A DNA stretch of 50,692 nucleotides from NCBI GenBank assembly GCA_948442255.1, contig CAOJRT010000008.1, positions 1 through 50,692 on the forward strand, written 5' to 3'. The translations under genes were made by a program, and so were the position numbers. The notes beneath the pieces are model-generated. The model had not been told where the DNA came from. It did not search any database and saw only the letters and a program-made list of their open reading frames with translations. This DNA is from an uncultured Caryophanales bacterium (GTDB lineage: Bacteria > Bacillota_I > Bacilli_A > RF39 > UBA660). Numbering within the stretch: the stretch's first letter is position 1; each line of letters begins with the position of its first letter. This document shows, piece by piece, positions 31,372 to 43,627 of the stretch.

Positions 31372-31388
31372 AAAAGAGAGTTGATAAT

Positions 31389-32102
31389 ATGGCTAAACAA
31401 AAAACTTTTTCAGATAATGTATTAGAATTTAATGAATGGCTAGCAAATATATCTTTAGAATTATTTGATAATTATGCTATTAGTAATCCATTTAGTGGTA
31501 AAAATAGAGTACAAATAAAAGAGATTACGAATGCTTTTTATAAAAAATATTATAATGATCATAATAAAAGATATTTAATACTTGGGAGTTCCCCAGCAAG
31601 AAAAGGTACAGCAACAACAGGTATTCCATTTGAAGATGCGGGTCATCTTTATAAAGAAACAGGTATTATGATTGATAATTTTTATATAAATCAATCATCT
31701 TCTAATTTTTTGTATGATGTTATGGAACAATATGGTGGTTATGAAAAATTTTATAAGGACTTTTTTATGAGTTTTGTATGTCCACTTGGTATAGTAAATA
31801 TAAATTCAAAAGGAAATGAAGTTAATTCAAATTATTATGAAAATAAAAAATTGGAGAATGCTTTATACAATTTTATTGTTGATTCTTTAAAAAAACAGAT
31901 TGCTTTTGGAATTGAAACATCTGTATGTTATTGTATAGGAAGTGGAGAAAATTTTAAATTTTTAAAAAAAATTAATGAACAATATAAATTTTTTGATAAG
32001 ATTATTGCTTTAGAACATCCAAGATTTATTATGCAATATAATTCAAAAGATAGGAATAAATACTTGGATAAATACATTAATACTTTAAATAATAGAAACT
32101 AA
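31389..32102 (+). CDS. SMUG2-like uracil-DNA-glycosylase-superfamily protein
   Basis: A 237-residue protein resembling the SMUG2 branch of uracil-DNA glycosylases as I remember it: NPFSGKNR, FYKKYYNDHNKRYLILGSSPARKGTATTGIPFED, FVCPLGIVN, CYCIGSGENFKFL and LEHPRFIMQY appear in the expected order. The active-site motif is GSSPA where SMUG enzymes usually have G-(I/M)-N-P-G, so the catalytic Asn appears to be Ser. The motif-2 His (HPRF) is kept. The ATG at 31389 is preferred over TTG 31362. A close paralogue with a frameshift lies at 40486-41200. Confidence 0.72.
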   Translation: MAKQKTFSDNVLEFNEWLANISLELFDNYAISNPFSGKNRVQIKEITNAFYKKYYNDHNKRYLILGSSPARKGTATTGIPFEDAGHLYKETGIMIDNFYINQSSSNFLYDVMEQYGGYEKFYKDFFMSFVCPLGIVNINSKGNEVNSNYYENKKLENALYNFIVDSLKKQIAFGIETSVCYCIGSGENFKFLKKINEQYKFFDKIIALEHPRFIMQYNSKDRNKYLDKYINTLNNRN

Positions 32103-40464: not shown

Positions 40465-41200
40465 ATGTTAGAAGAAAATAATAAAATGACTAAAAAAAAA
40501 GGCTTTTTCGGATTACGTTGTAGAATTTAATGAATGGTTGGGCAATATATCTTTGAACTTATTTGCTAATTATAATATTAGTAATCCATTTAATGGTAAT
40601 AATAAAGAAAAAATAAAGGAAATTACGAATGCTTTTTATAAAAAATATTATAATGACTATAATAAAAGATATTTAATACTAGGAAGCTCACCAGAGAGAA
40701 AAGGCACAGCAATAACAGGTATTCCGTTTGAAGATGCAAGTCATCTTTATAAAGAAACTGGTATTATAATTGATAAATATTATATTAATAAATCATCTTC
40801 TGATTTTTTGTATGATGTTATGGAACAATGTGGTGGTTGTGAAAAGTTTTATAAAAACTTTTTTATGAATTTTGTATGCCCACTTGGTATAGTAAAAGTA
40901 AATTCAAAAGGAAATGAAGTCAATTCAAATTATTATGAAAACAAAAAATTAGAAAATGCTTTATACAATTTTATTATTGATTCTTTAAAAAAGCAGATTT
41001 CTTTTGGAATTCATACTTCGATATGTTATTGCATAGGTAGTGGAGAAAATTTTAAATTTTTAACAAAAATTAATGAGCAGTATAAATTTTTTGATAAGAT
41101 TATTGCTTTAGAACATCCAAGATTTATTATGCAATATAATTCAAAAGATAGAAATAAATACTTAAAAAAATATATTGATGCTTTTAATAATAGAAGTTAG
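40465..41200 (+). pseudogene. SMUG2-like gene with frameshift at A9 tract
   Basis: From ATG 40465 (or 40486) the frame reads MLEENNKMTKKKGFFG and stops at 40530. A one-base change at the nine-A run (40492-40500) would instead read MTKKKAFSDYVVEFNEWLGNISL and continue open to 41200, matching the intact paralogue at 31389 almost throughout. The downstream part is undamaged, including GSSPERKGTAITGIPFED, CYCIGSGENFKFL and LEHPRFIMQY. It is therefore a very recent pseudogene or a gene switched by slippage at the homopolymer. Confidence 0.8.
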
Positions 41201-41221: not shown

Positions 41222-41863
41222 ATTGTAACATTACTTTCTTTAATTGCAGGTTTATTGTCTCACGATGTTTTAAAGGAGAGTTAAATCTTTTAACATCTTT
41301 ATTATGTGCATATTTTTCTAGTGAGGGAAAAAAGAATTAGTTATATTATGGATTGTATTAATTATCTGTTAATAGGATATTTATCTTTTAAAAATCAACT
41401 TTATGGCTTGTTTATATTTGGAGTTATTATATATCCTATATTACAAATTCAAGGGTATATAAGTTGAGGTGAAAATTTAGATGAAAATAAGAATGTTAAA
41501 ATTCGATAGTTTACTTTAAAAAATTCTATTATTATAACTTTATCCTGTTTGTTAGGAAGTCTAATTTTAAGTTATTTATTAACTCTTATTTCAGGACAAA
41601 GAATTGCTTTTAGGGATGCTGCATCAAATACTATAAATTTATGTGCTCTTATTTTAGCAATTTTAAGATTTAAGGAATGTTGGTGGATATGGTTAATAAA
41701 TAATGTTATTGATTTAGGTATTTGGATTATTACATTTATAGCTAATGGAGAAGGATCTTTTATGCTGTTATTGGTAGCAATAGCTTACTTAGTAATTAAT
41801 ATTTATGGCATAATAAAATGGAATATGGAAGCTAAAAGAAATAGAAAATTAGAAGCAAATTAG
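41222..41863 (+). pseudogene. pnuC: Degraded pnuC (nicotinamide riboside/mononucleotide transporter)
   Basis: Pieces of a PnuC-type membrane transporter can be read in changing frames: IVTLLSLIAGLL near 41222, SYIMDCINYLLIGYLSFKNQLYG near 41340-41410, then a stretch with in-frame TGA (after GYIS) and TAG (after VKIR), and an open C-terminal part from 41549 (GQRIAFRDAASNTINLCALI; FKECWWIWLINNVIDLGIWI). At least one frameshift and two nonsense codons are present. The 104-residue open tail is unlikely to work alone. Confidence 0.75.
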
Positions 41864-42018
41864 TGATTATTTACGTAGTATGAACTGAGTGGATAACAGA
41901 ATTTCGCTACTTCTCTTGGAGGAATTAAATCTATTTATTGAAAGACAATTTATGTTTTTACTTCTTTGTAGAGCTGTTGTTTCTTTTTTTGTTGATATCT
42001 TTGTTTTTATAAACATGC

Positions 42019-42024
42019 TATACT
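42019..42024 (+). promoter_or_regulatory. -10 element for the ABC-F leader transcript
   Basis: ATGCTATACT has TATACT with an upstream TG, 42 bases before the leader ATG. The 189 bases 41864-42052 hold no gene. Confidence 0.4.
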
Positions 42025-42065
42025 GGTATTAGAAAGGTTATTTACACATTTAATGGAGGTGCGAA

Positions 42066-42083
42066 ATGAGATTATTTTTATAG
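42066..42083 (+). CDS. Leader peptide MRLFL upstream of the ABC-F gene
   Basis: ATG AGA TTA TTT TTA TAG encodes MRLFL, preceded by a strong GGAGGTG (42055-42061). Short leaders of the M-R-(L/F)-F-V type interact with macrolides in the ribosome exit tunnel, and ribosome-dependent leaders often control ABC-F and Erm genes. It ends 44 bases before the ABC-F start. Confidence 0.6.
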   Translation: MRLFL

Positions 42084-42086
42084 AAG

Positions 42087-42127
42087 TTGGCATAAACTTT
42101 GATTATGCCAAGAAAGAGAGGCATAAT
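42087..42127 (+). promoter_or_regulatory. Mutually exclusive hairpins before the ABC-F start codon
   Basis: TTGGCATAA (42087-42095) can pair with TTATGCCAA (42103-42111). Alternatively ATTATGCC (42102-42109) can pair with GGCATAAT (42120-42127), burying the 3' end of the AGAGAGG ribosome site and abutting the AUG at 42128. Both stems are perfect, so this looks like a translational switch tied to the leader. Confidence 0.65.
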
Positions 42128-43627
42128 ATGTTACAAATAAAGAATTTAACGATTATTGTTTATGATCGATATTTAGTTAAAAATTTATCTTTTACTTTAA
42201 ATAAAAATGAAAAATTGGCCATCATTGGCGAAGAGGGGAATGGAAAATCAACATTACTTAAATGTATACTAGGAATTTGTGATTATGCGCATTTTAGTGG
42301 ATATATAAATGCAAAAGGAGAACGCATTGGTTATTTAGAACAATCTATGTCAAAGGAAAACTGTGCAAAGAAAGTCTATGATTATCTATTTTCTAATGAG
42401 GAAGATTATTATAATAAAATTAATTTATTCTATACTTATTTAGAAACAATCCAATTAGAAGATACCATCTTAGATCAAGTTATTTCTACTTTATCAGGGG
42501 GAGAAAAGGTAAAGATTTCTATTTTAAAATTATTATTAGAAGAGTATGATATTTATTTTTTAGATGAACCAACGAATGATTTAGATATAGAGACACTTGA
42601 ATGGTTAGAACATTTCATTAATGTAGAAAATAAACCTATTCTTTATATTTCTCATGATGAAACATTGCTTGCTAATACAGCTACTTCTATTTTACACTTA
42701 GAACAAATAAAGAAAAAGACGGATTGTCGCCACACACTTTTAAAAATAGGTTATGATGCGTATGTTAAGGAGCGATTATGTAAGATTGCTAAACAAGAGC
42801 AAGTCGCTAAGAACGAAAAAAGAAATTTTGATAAAAAGCAAGCGAAACTGAAGCAAATTATGAATAAAGTGGAACATGAACAGAATACTATTACAAGAGC
42901 GGATCCACATGGAGCACGATTATTAAAAAAGAAAATGCACGCCATAAAATCACAAGAGAGAAAATTGGAAAAGGTTATATTAACAGAAACTCCTGATATA
43001 GAAGAGAGTATTCATTTTTTCTTTTCTGAAATATATATTCCTAAAAATAAAGTTATTTTAAAATTGGATATTCCTGAGCTGAAAGTGGAAAATCGAGTAT
43101 TATCAAGAAATGTTCATTTGGAAGTTATGGGGAATACTCATTTTTGTATTGTGGGAAATAATGGTGTAGGAAAGTCTACTTTGATGAAATTTATCTATGA
43201 AAAATTAAAAGATAGAACAGATATACAAGTAGGTTATATGCCTCAAAATTATGAGGATATTTTAGATATGCAAAGGGATGTTTTAGATTTTTTATCTCCT
43301 AGTAAGAGTAAAGAAGATATTACACTTGCTAGAACCTACTTAGGTAGTATGAAGTTTACTCATGAAGAAACAACTGGGAAAATAGGGCAACTAAGTAATG
43401 GTTCTAAAGCTAAGCTTCTATTAGCCTATCTTGTTTTAAGTAATTGCAATGTATTGCTTTTAGATGAACCTACTCGAAATGTAAGTCCGTTATCAAATCC
43501 TGTTATTCGAAACATTTTAAAGAATTTTCAAGGGACTATTATAAGTGTTTCTCATGATCGTAAATATATTTTTGAAGTTGCAGATGAATTGTATGTATTT
43601 ACTAAAGATGGTTTATTGAAAAAGTAA
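42128..43627 (+). CDS. ABC-F family ATPase (ribosome protection type)
   Basis: A 499-residue protein with two ABC domains and no membrane spans. First domain: Walker A GEEGNGKST, signature LSGGEKVKI, Walker B YFLDEPTNDLD. A basic helical linker (about residues 215-290) would reach toward the peptidyl-transferase centre. Second domain: GNNGVGKST, signature LSNGSKAKLLL and DEPTRNVSPLSNPVIR. ABC-F proteins displace antibiotics from, or reset, the ribosome. ATG 42128 has AGAGAGG 6 bases upstream; an in-frame ATG at 42053 would overlap the leader. Substrate class cannot be assigned. Confidence 0.85.
   Translation: MLQIKNLTIIVYDRYLVKNLSFTLNKNEKLAIIGEEGNGKSTLLKCILGICDYAHFSGYINAKGERIGYLEQSMSKENCAKKVYDYLFSNEEDYYNKINLFYTYLETIQLEDTILDQVISTLSGGEKVKISILKLLLEEYDIYFLDEPTNDLDIETLEWLEHFINVENKPILYISHDETLLANTATSILHLEQIKKKTDCRHTLLKIGYDAYVKERLCKIAKQEQVAKNEKRNFDKKQAKLKQIMNKVEHEQNTITRADPHGARLLKKKMHAIKSQERKLEKVILTETPDIEESIHFFFSEIYIPKNKVILKLDIPELKVENRVLSRNVHLEVMGNTHFCIVGNNGVGKSTLMKFIYEKLKDRTDIQVGYMPQNYEDILDMQRDVLDFLSPSKSKEDITLARTYLGSMKFTHEETTGKIGQLSNGSKAKLLLAYLVLSNCNVLLLDEPTRNVSPLSNPVIRNILKNFQGTIISVSHDRKYIFEVADELYVFTKDGLLKK

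Follow-up and report, generated by a model that had tools for sequence, protein, structure and literature searches.

A probable translational attenuator with three interchangeable RNA arms before an ABC-F gene in a little-studied bacterial family

Introduction

Two RNA hairpins compete directly before an ABC-F gene in a 50,692-nucleotide stretch of DNA from an uncultured Caryophanales bacterium (the window hereafter, meaning the whole stretch analysed), one of them reaching up to the start codon of the gene. Do these hairpins constitute a switch, and if so, in which direction is it thrown by a ribosome translating the tiny reading frame that precedes them? The initial annotation saw here an ABC-F gene controlled by its leader, likened the encoded peptide MRLFL to leader peptides of the drug-responsive type, and suggested that a ribosome stalled on the leader would mask the first pairing arm and favor the start-blocking stem, the reverse of the logic of the erm genes, while posing the direction of control as a question. 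Below, we examine the anatomy of the locus, its homologues and its predicted folding, and arrive at the opposite direction of control.

A leader frame, two competing stems and an ABC-F gene

The features on which the argument rests are the following:

42016-42024, + strand: candidate extended -10 element (TGC TATACT), on inspection of the sequence
42055-42059, + strand: Shine-Dalgarno sequence of the leader (GGAGG), in columns with 0.84-1.00 pairwise identity across 47 homologous leaders
42066-42083, + strand: leader ORF ATG-AGA-TTA-TTT-TTA-TAG (MRLFL), five codons and a stop, from the sequence and homologous leaders
42083-42088, + strand: arm 1 (GAAGUU), pairing with AACUUU at 42095-42100 in the MFE fold
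42087-42095, + strand: arm 2 (UUGGCAUAA), from the sequence and the 2:3 pairing in homologues
42102-42111, + strand: arm 3 (AUUAUGCCAA), common to both alternative stems
42116-42127, + strand: Shine-Dalgarno sequence of the ABC-F gene (GAGAGG) continuing into arm 4, from the sequence and the 3:4 pairing
42120-42127, + strand: arm 4 (GGCAUAAU), abutting the ABC-F ATG at 42128
42128-43627, + strand: ABC-F ATPase gene, 499 aa, with two ABC_tran stretches (PF00005)

The leader ORF, its ribosome site and the three arms described in the initial annotation are all present in the sequence, and the segment at 42102-42111 can indeed pair either way. Stem 2:3 joins UUGGCAUAA (42087-42095) to UUAUGCCAA (42103-42111) in nine perfect base pairs and stem 3:4 joins AUUAUGCC (42102-42109) to GGCAUAAU (42120-42127) in eight, and the two are mutually exclusive because both use arm 3. 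Folded alone, they are nearly equal in stability, with -9.0 kcal/mol (z -4.0) for 2:3 and -8.8 kcal/mol (z -4.5) for 3:4. A further pairing had been overlooked, namely that of arm 1 (GAAGUU, 42083-42088), which begins inside the stop codon of the leader, with AACUUU (42095-42100). In the MFE fold of the leader, this hairpin encloses the GGCAUA of arm 2 and is accompanied by 3:4; this fold is start-blocked, since arm 1 shuts off arm 2 while 3:4 is formed. The choice between 1:2 plus 3:4 on the one hand and 2:3 on the other is therefore the layout of the erm attenuators.

Farther upstream, the sequence at 42016-42024 is likely an extended -10 promoter element, which would put the transcript start near 42031; it is absent among the sites from a consensus promoter scan. 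No terminator-like site was found between the leader and the ABC-F gene (42083 to 42128), and no Rfam family matched at its gathering score anywhere in the window. A three-arm arrangement with perfect 7-base pairing arose in 19 of 20,000 dinucleotide shuffles of the 121-nt region; when the entire window, which is AT-rich, was shuffled, it turned up about 0.8 times on each strand. Given the latter rate, the single sequence is suggestive only, and conservation had to decide.

With two ABC ATPase domains and a helical linker between them, the protein has the architecture of the ABC-F family, as judged from Pfam and the predicted structure. The latter (mean pLDDT 87) finds its best PDB folds in PoxtA and VmlR2, closely followed by Uup and EttA; it thus fits resistance and housekeeping ABC-Fs about equally and does not settle the function. 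None of the curated ARE cut-offs (Vga, Msr, Lsa, Sal, CplR, OptrA) is reached, with the best ARE model, Vga, scoring 237.4 bits against a cut-off of 725 and the CplR model 197.6 against 780. The generic ribosomal-protection model NF000355 scores 301.5 bits, below its cut-off of 380; a homologue (L083) passes it with 392.8 bits, and 8 of 14 control genomes pass this model too. We infer, mainly from the leader, that the protein could confer resistance. The gene is presumably monocistronic. Just upstream lies a PnuC-like ORF (41549-41863) with a TTG start only, which matches only the C-terminal half of the Pfam model and may be truncated or misread. The window also contains two stretches of about 716 nt each (31384-32097 and 40481-41195) that are 89% identical and 9.1 kb apart, with the second copy covering a uracil-DNA-glycosylase-like gene (PF03167).

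Conservation of the arrangement before homologous genes

At E <= 1e-80, the ABC-F gene was found in 64 of 386 family genomes and 44 of 150 genera. We examined the 5' sides of 68 genes, 64 of them from the family and four from other families of the class (L013-L016), while excluding five family matches that lack a 5' end. A Shine-Dalgarno sequence, an ORF of 3-9 codons and the same three arms precede the gene in 51 of the 64 family loci (the window and 50 of the 63 others). The search for the same leader before homologues, suggested as a check in the initial annotation, thus found the arrangement conserved in dozens of relatives, which most likely makes it an ordinary switch, if an undescribed one. 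In the 47 distinct loci among the 51, which served as our leader set, the arm 2 core has 0.88-1.00 pairwise identity, and the region upstream of the leader Shine-Dalgarno sequence is at background (0.28-0.47). The element is absent in the remaining 13 family loci (L039, L043, L046, L048, L066, L073 and L075-L081): L043 and L066 retain the leader ORF and lack the arms, in L046 the gene is broken and its leader is found at another place on the contig, and L073 and L075-L081 encode diverged ABC-F proteins (49-55% identity). A broad-pattern scan of genome contigs yielded at least seven close homologues (42-66% identity) among the 80 loci listed; L083, whose ABC-F protein is the closest among the matches listed (66% identity), carries the leader.

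Both competing stems are maintained in these homologues, with the 2:3 pairs formed in 94.9% and the 3:4 pairs in 93.6% of the cells of the alignment. The 1:2 pairs are formed in 75.8%, with the central AAGU/ACUU kept in 38-39 of the 47 leaders, but in the folding ensemble arm 1 pairs weakly (mean p12 0.08 over the 47). Covariation is thin because the arms are nearly invariant: it does not exceed column shuffles for 2:3 and is modestly above them for 3:4 and 1:2 (scores reached by 11 and 3 of 500 shuffles, respectively). Still, in L012 and L074, GGC/GCC/GGC has become GGU/ACC/GGU in all three arms together, with both stems preserved, probably as one event because the two belong to the same genus, and a G-U wobble preserves a stem in L006, L010, L068 and L071.

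The element is tied to this one gene. A covariance model run on the 386 family genomes recovered 56 matches in 55 genomes, 55 of which stand directly before the ABC-F gene, counting frameshifted, split or contig-broken copies, and the remaining one (G323) before an ABC-F remnant. Most of the matching sequences had gone into building the model, and their recovery is therefore expected; what carries information is the absence of any other match. Across 395 class genomes, there were 13 matches at E <= 0.05, of which five are strong (the window, three family members and G663 from another family, likewise before the ABC-F gene) and eight, at E 0.025-0.05, are at chance level.

In G663 (contig C35; L163, L219), the ABC-F leader region looks the same as that of G128 (L035), by horizontal transfer or contamination. 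The ABC-F gene of one relative, G426 (contig C2, about 49.2-50.6 kb and 73.6 kb; L217, L218, L188), is interrupted after roughly 24 codons: its leader and N-terminus lie some 23 kb away from the rest of the gene, in the same orientation, and the two junctions share AATTTAATATTA, a picture suggestive of a mobile-element insertion. G323 (contig C70; L215) has a degenerate leader directly followed by the C-terminal part of the ABC-F gene, and the frame is broken in G344 (contig C2; L193). Both are decaying copies, and the gene seems to be lost often. Viral contigs offered neither a relative of the protein nor an exact copy of the arm 2-arm 3 pattern. The ABC-F proteins of plasmids and phages are all below 60% identity (27-31% among the matches listed), and hence there is no sign of recent mobility there.

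Outside this arm set, the class orthologues with 40-50% identity keep a short ORF (e.g., MRK, MKNA, MYKSLSVR) with other folds. In four of the six leaders folded (L167, L168, L169, L179), all of which include the ABC-F Shine-Dalgarno sequence, a long hairpin encloses the ORF, and the Shine-Dalgarno sequence is hidden by a separate one; L013 has a terminator-like hairpin before that sequence, and the stretch available for L173 ended before it. Judging from these sequences, the principle appears to be older than the present arm set.

A leader fixed in position rather than in peptide

The 47 leaders have six codons in 28 cases, five in 10, seven in 5, eight in 2, and three and nine in one each; 39 have 3, 5 or 6 codons. 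Despite this range, the distance from stop codon to arm 2 is 7 nt in 30 of them. Codon 2 specifies Arg in 39 (36 AGA, 2 CGC, 1 CGA) and the first base of codon 3 is A in 45, with codons 3-6 otherwise near background and barely above it. No conserved drug-arrest peptide was found in the set, with Met-Arg alone being kept, nor was there a conserved arrest motif at the end of the leader. As the alignment has it, the leader is conserved in position, and its peptide beyond Met-Arg is not. A role of MRLFL as a sensor peptide of the drug-responsive type is not supported by this comparison, as Leu at position 3 occurs in 1 of the 47 leaders, that of the window. MRLFL and the leader MRMLTR of L082 resemble short macrolide-resistance peptides, the latter starting with MRMLT, a short peptide linked to erythromycin resistance.

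Predicted response of the leader RNA to a translating ribosome

In our model, a ribosome with codon n in its P site occupies 16 nt counted from the first base of that codon, and the remaining sequence was folded; this footprint is in keeping with the 30S toeprint of VmlR, reported 16 nt 3' of the start-codon A (PMC9226507). Access to the ABC-F start was gauged by pair probabilities, which replaced the mean unpairedness of the 12 nt before the ATG, a measure that is uninformative because it includes the loop. In the window without a ribosome, p(2:3) is 0.18 and p(3:4) 0.82. With codons 1 to 5 successively in the P site, p(2:3) becomes 0.15, 0.60, 0.46, 0 and 0 and p(3:4) becomes 0.85, 0.40, 0.54, 1.0 and 1.0. 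Across the 47 leaders, the mean p(3:4) is 0.67 without a ribosome and 0.99 with the last codon in the P site, where p(2:3) is below 0.01 in all 47; in 33 leaders, 2:3 peaks when codon 3 or 4 occupies the P site. Footprints of 14 to 17 nt gave a similar outcome, with the best codon moving from 4 towards 3. Predicted folding by ribosome position therefore indicates that finishing the leader would lock the ABC-F start and that early arrest would permit its release. The direction considered in the initial annotation fits a ribosome whose P site holds codon 4 or 5 and fails for codon 2 or 3, where arm 1 is covered, arm 2 is largely free and the opening stem is favored. On this model, early arrest most likely turns the ABC-F gene on, as in erm.

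At equilibrium, the mean best p(2:3) is 0.34 and exceeds 0.3 in 21 of the 47; many leaders favor 3:4 even with an early-stalled ribosome, and kinetics must therefore be invoked. The order of synthesis would help, as arm 3 emerges before arm 4. Against this reading, a ribosome on the leader AUG, where pleuromutilin or lincosamide arrest is to be expected, leaves arm 1 uncovered in the footprint model.

Competing explanations

A specific arrest peptide could still operate in this one genome. The MRL motif of Erm leaders arrests macrolide-bound ribosomes, and the MRL of MRLFL might do so at Leu3, making this copy answer to macrolides; the switch of this leader opens at two positions, one of them with Leu3 in the P site (p23 0.46). 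Its presence in 1 of 47 leaders means that it cannot be the general rule, and the word MRLFV was not found in the literature searched for it, which leaves such an arrest unlikely. Alternatively, the drug could arrest the ribosome at the end of the leader, mask arm 2 and repress ABC-F, or leader-end arrest could itself be the signal for a gene that is on by default. When codon 4 or codon 5 occupies the P site, the window leader would behave in this manner (p34 = 1.0), and MsrDL is reported to arrest at its UAA with erythromycin (PMC10314930). However, the ribosome-free fold is already start-blocked, both in the window and on average over the set, the motif for arrest at the end of the leader is not conserved, and drug repression of a ribosome-protection-type gene makes little sense. 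We consider this account quite improbable, and the reverse logic is, by the folding model, probably wrong for this leader.

It might also be argued that no RNA switch exists and that a transcription factor binds the inverted repeat as its DNA operator, GGCATAA-N7-TTATGCC being a well-formed palindrome close to the inferred promoter. This is made highly improbable by the variation in the inter-arm spacer and in the distance from arm 3 to the start (13-29 nt), which an operator would hardly tolerate, and by the use of G-U pairs; moreover, the third arm overlaps the Shine-Dalgarno sequence and an ORF with its own Shine-Dalgarno sequence occupies nearly the same place in every copy. Finally, the frame is open from 42053 (ATG GAG GTG ...) into the ABC-F gene, so that the supposed leader could be coding sequence. 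We tried this start and rejected it as barely credible: a long stretch of open frame ahead of the gene (44 codons) occurs at one of the 47 loci, with all others having 18 codons or fewer, the ATGGAGG in question is the Shine-Dalgarno sequence itself, and the homologues begin at the equivalent of 42128.

A model for induction

We propose that the element is a translational attenuator of the erm/CplR kind, probably switched on by early arrest of the ribosome, with drugs as the presumed cause of that arrest. The strong leader Shine-Dalgarno sequence would keep loading ribosomes onto the five-codon ORF. By footprint arithmetic and predicted folding, a ribosome finishing the leader would sit on arm 2, upon which arm 3 would pair with arm 4 and hide both the Shine-Dalgarno sequence and the start of the ABC-F gene (off). 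With no ribosome, arm 1 would pair into arm 2 and the same off fold would be favored. An antibiotic that blocks the first peptide bonds would halt the ribosome early (here while codon 2 or codon 3 occupies the P site), so that arm 1 is covered and arm 2 can capture arm 3 before arm 4 does so, or in its place; this would release the ABC-F start (on). The peptide past Met-Arg would then count for little and the position for much. What stands from the initial annotation is thus a leader-controlled ABC-F gene, read by the ribosome through exclusive stems conserved in 51 of 64 loci, without MRLFL as its sensor. The anatomy, the conservation, the mutual exclusion and the tie to one gene are observed in the sequences themselves; drug-dependent arrest on the leader is what we infer from them, and the inducers would most likely be pleuromutilins, lincosamides and streptogramin A.

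More tentatively, the leader could contain no arrest peptide at all and register only whether ribosomes reach its end: reaching the stop codon, which overlaps arm 1 and brings the ribosome over arm 2, would repress, and any block of the first peptide bonds, by any class of drug, would turn the gene on. We hold this broader version to be possible, if somewhat doubtful; were it true, the element would be a general sensor of early-elongation stress.

Relationship to known attenuators

We did not find the element in the titles or abstract beginnings of the papers on ABC-F leaders that our searches listed. It would carry attenuation of the drug-responsive type at ABC-F genes into a little-studied bacterial family, one represented mainly by metagenome assemblies and to which the element is so far almost confined; its form is compact, works through translation alone and uses three interchangeable arms. 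It offers a clean test case for what a short leader senses, the sequence of its peptide or just the place of the ribosome, and it argues, short of proof, that a hitherto unplaced ABC-F clade is an inducible ribosome-protection factor.

With ermC and its relatives, the element shares a predicted alternation of 1:2 plus 3:4 (off) and 2:3 (on) and, in the present model, a purely translational control. The erm leaders carry conserved drug-arrest peptides, whereas here the peptide past Met-Arg is not conserved and arm 1 overlaps the stop codon of the leader. The msrDL-msrD system likewise has a short hydrophobic leader (MYLIFM) before an ABC-F gene, but the published account describes stop-codon arrest and transcription attenuation (PMC10314930); such arrest would lock the present switch off.

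The element most resembles attenuators of the CplR/VmlR type without a terminator. As reported for cplR of Clostridioides difficile, a uORF with the consensus MR[I/M] precedes the gene, which is induced by lincomycin and retapamulin, and translational attenuation was shown by mutation alongside transcriptional attenuation (PMC10201436). The two systems have in common a very short Met-Arg ORF, an ABC-F target, a hairpin sequestering the Shine-Dalgarno sequence, an alternative anti-sequestering fold and, as proposed here for the present element, translational attenuation (PMC10201436). The cplR leader is described as 212 nt long, with a three-codon uORF and an intrinsic terminator that also hides the Shine-Dalgarno sequence (PMC10201436); the present one has about 97 nt (if the inferred promoter is right), usually 5-6 codons, no terminator and other arm sequences. 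Similarly, vmlR of Bacillus subtilis combines a short uORF (MIN), an ABC-F gene and a hairpin hiding the Shine-Dalgarno sequence, and according to the published account its induction depends on arrest at initiation or early elongation (PMC9226507). Its control is given there as chiefly transcription attenuation with RNAP pausing (PMC9226507), whereas no terminator was found between the present leader and its gene. The closest known systems are thus cplR and vmlR, from which the element is set apart by the missing terminator, the overlap of arm 1 with the leader stop codon and a conserved arm sequence of its own.
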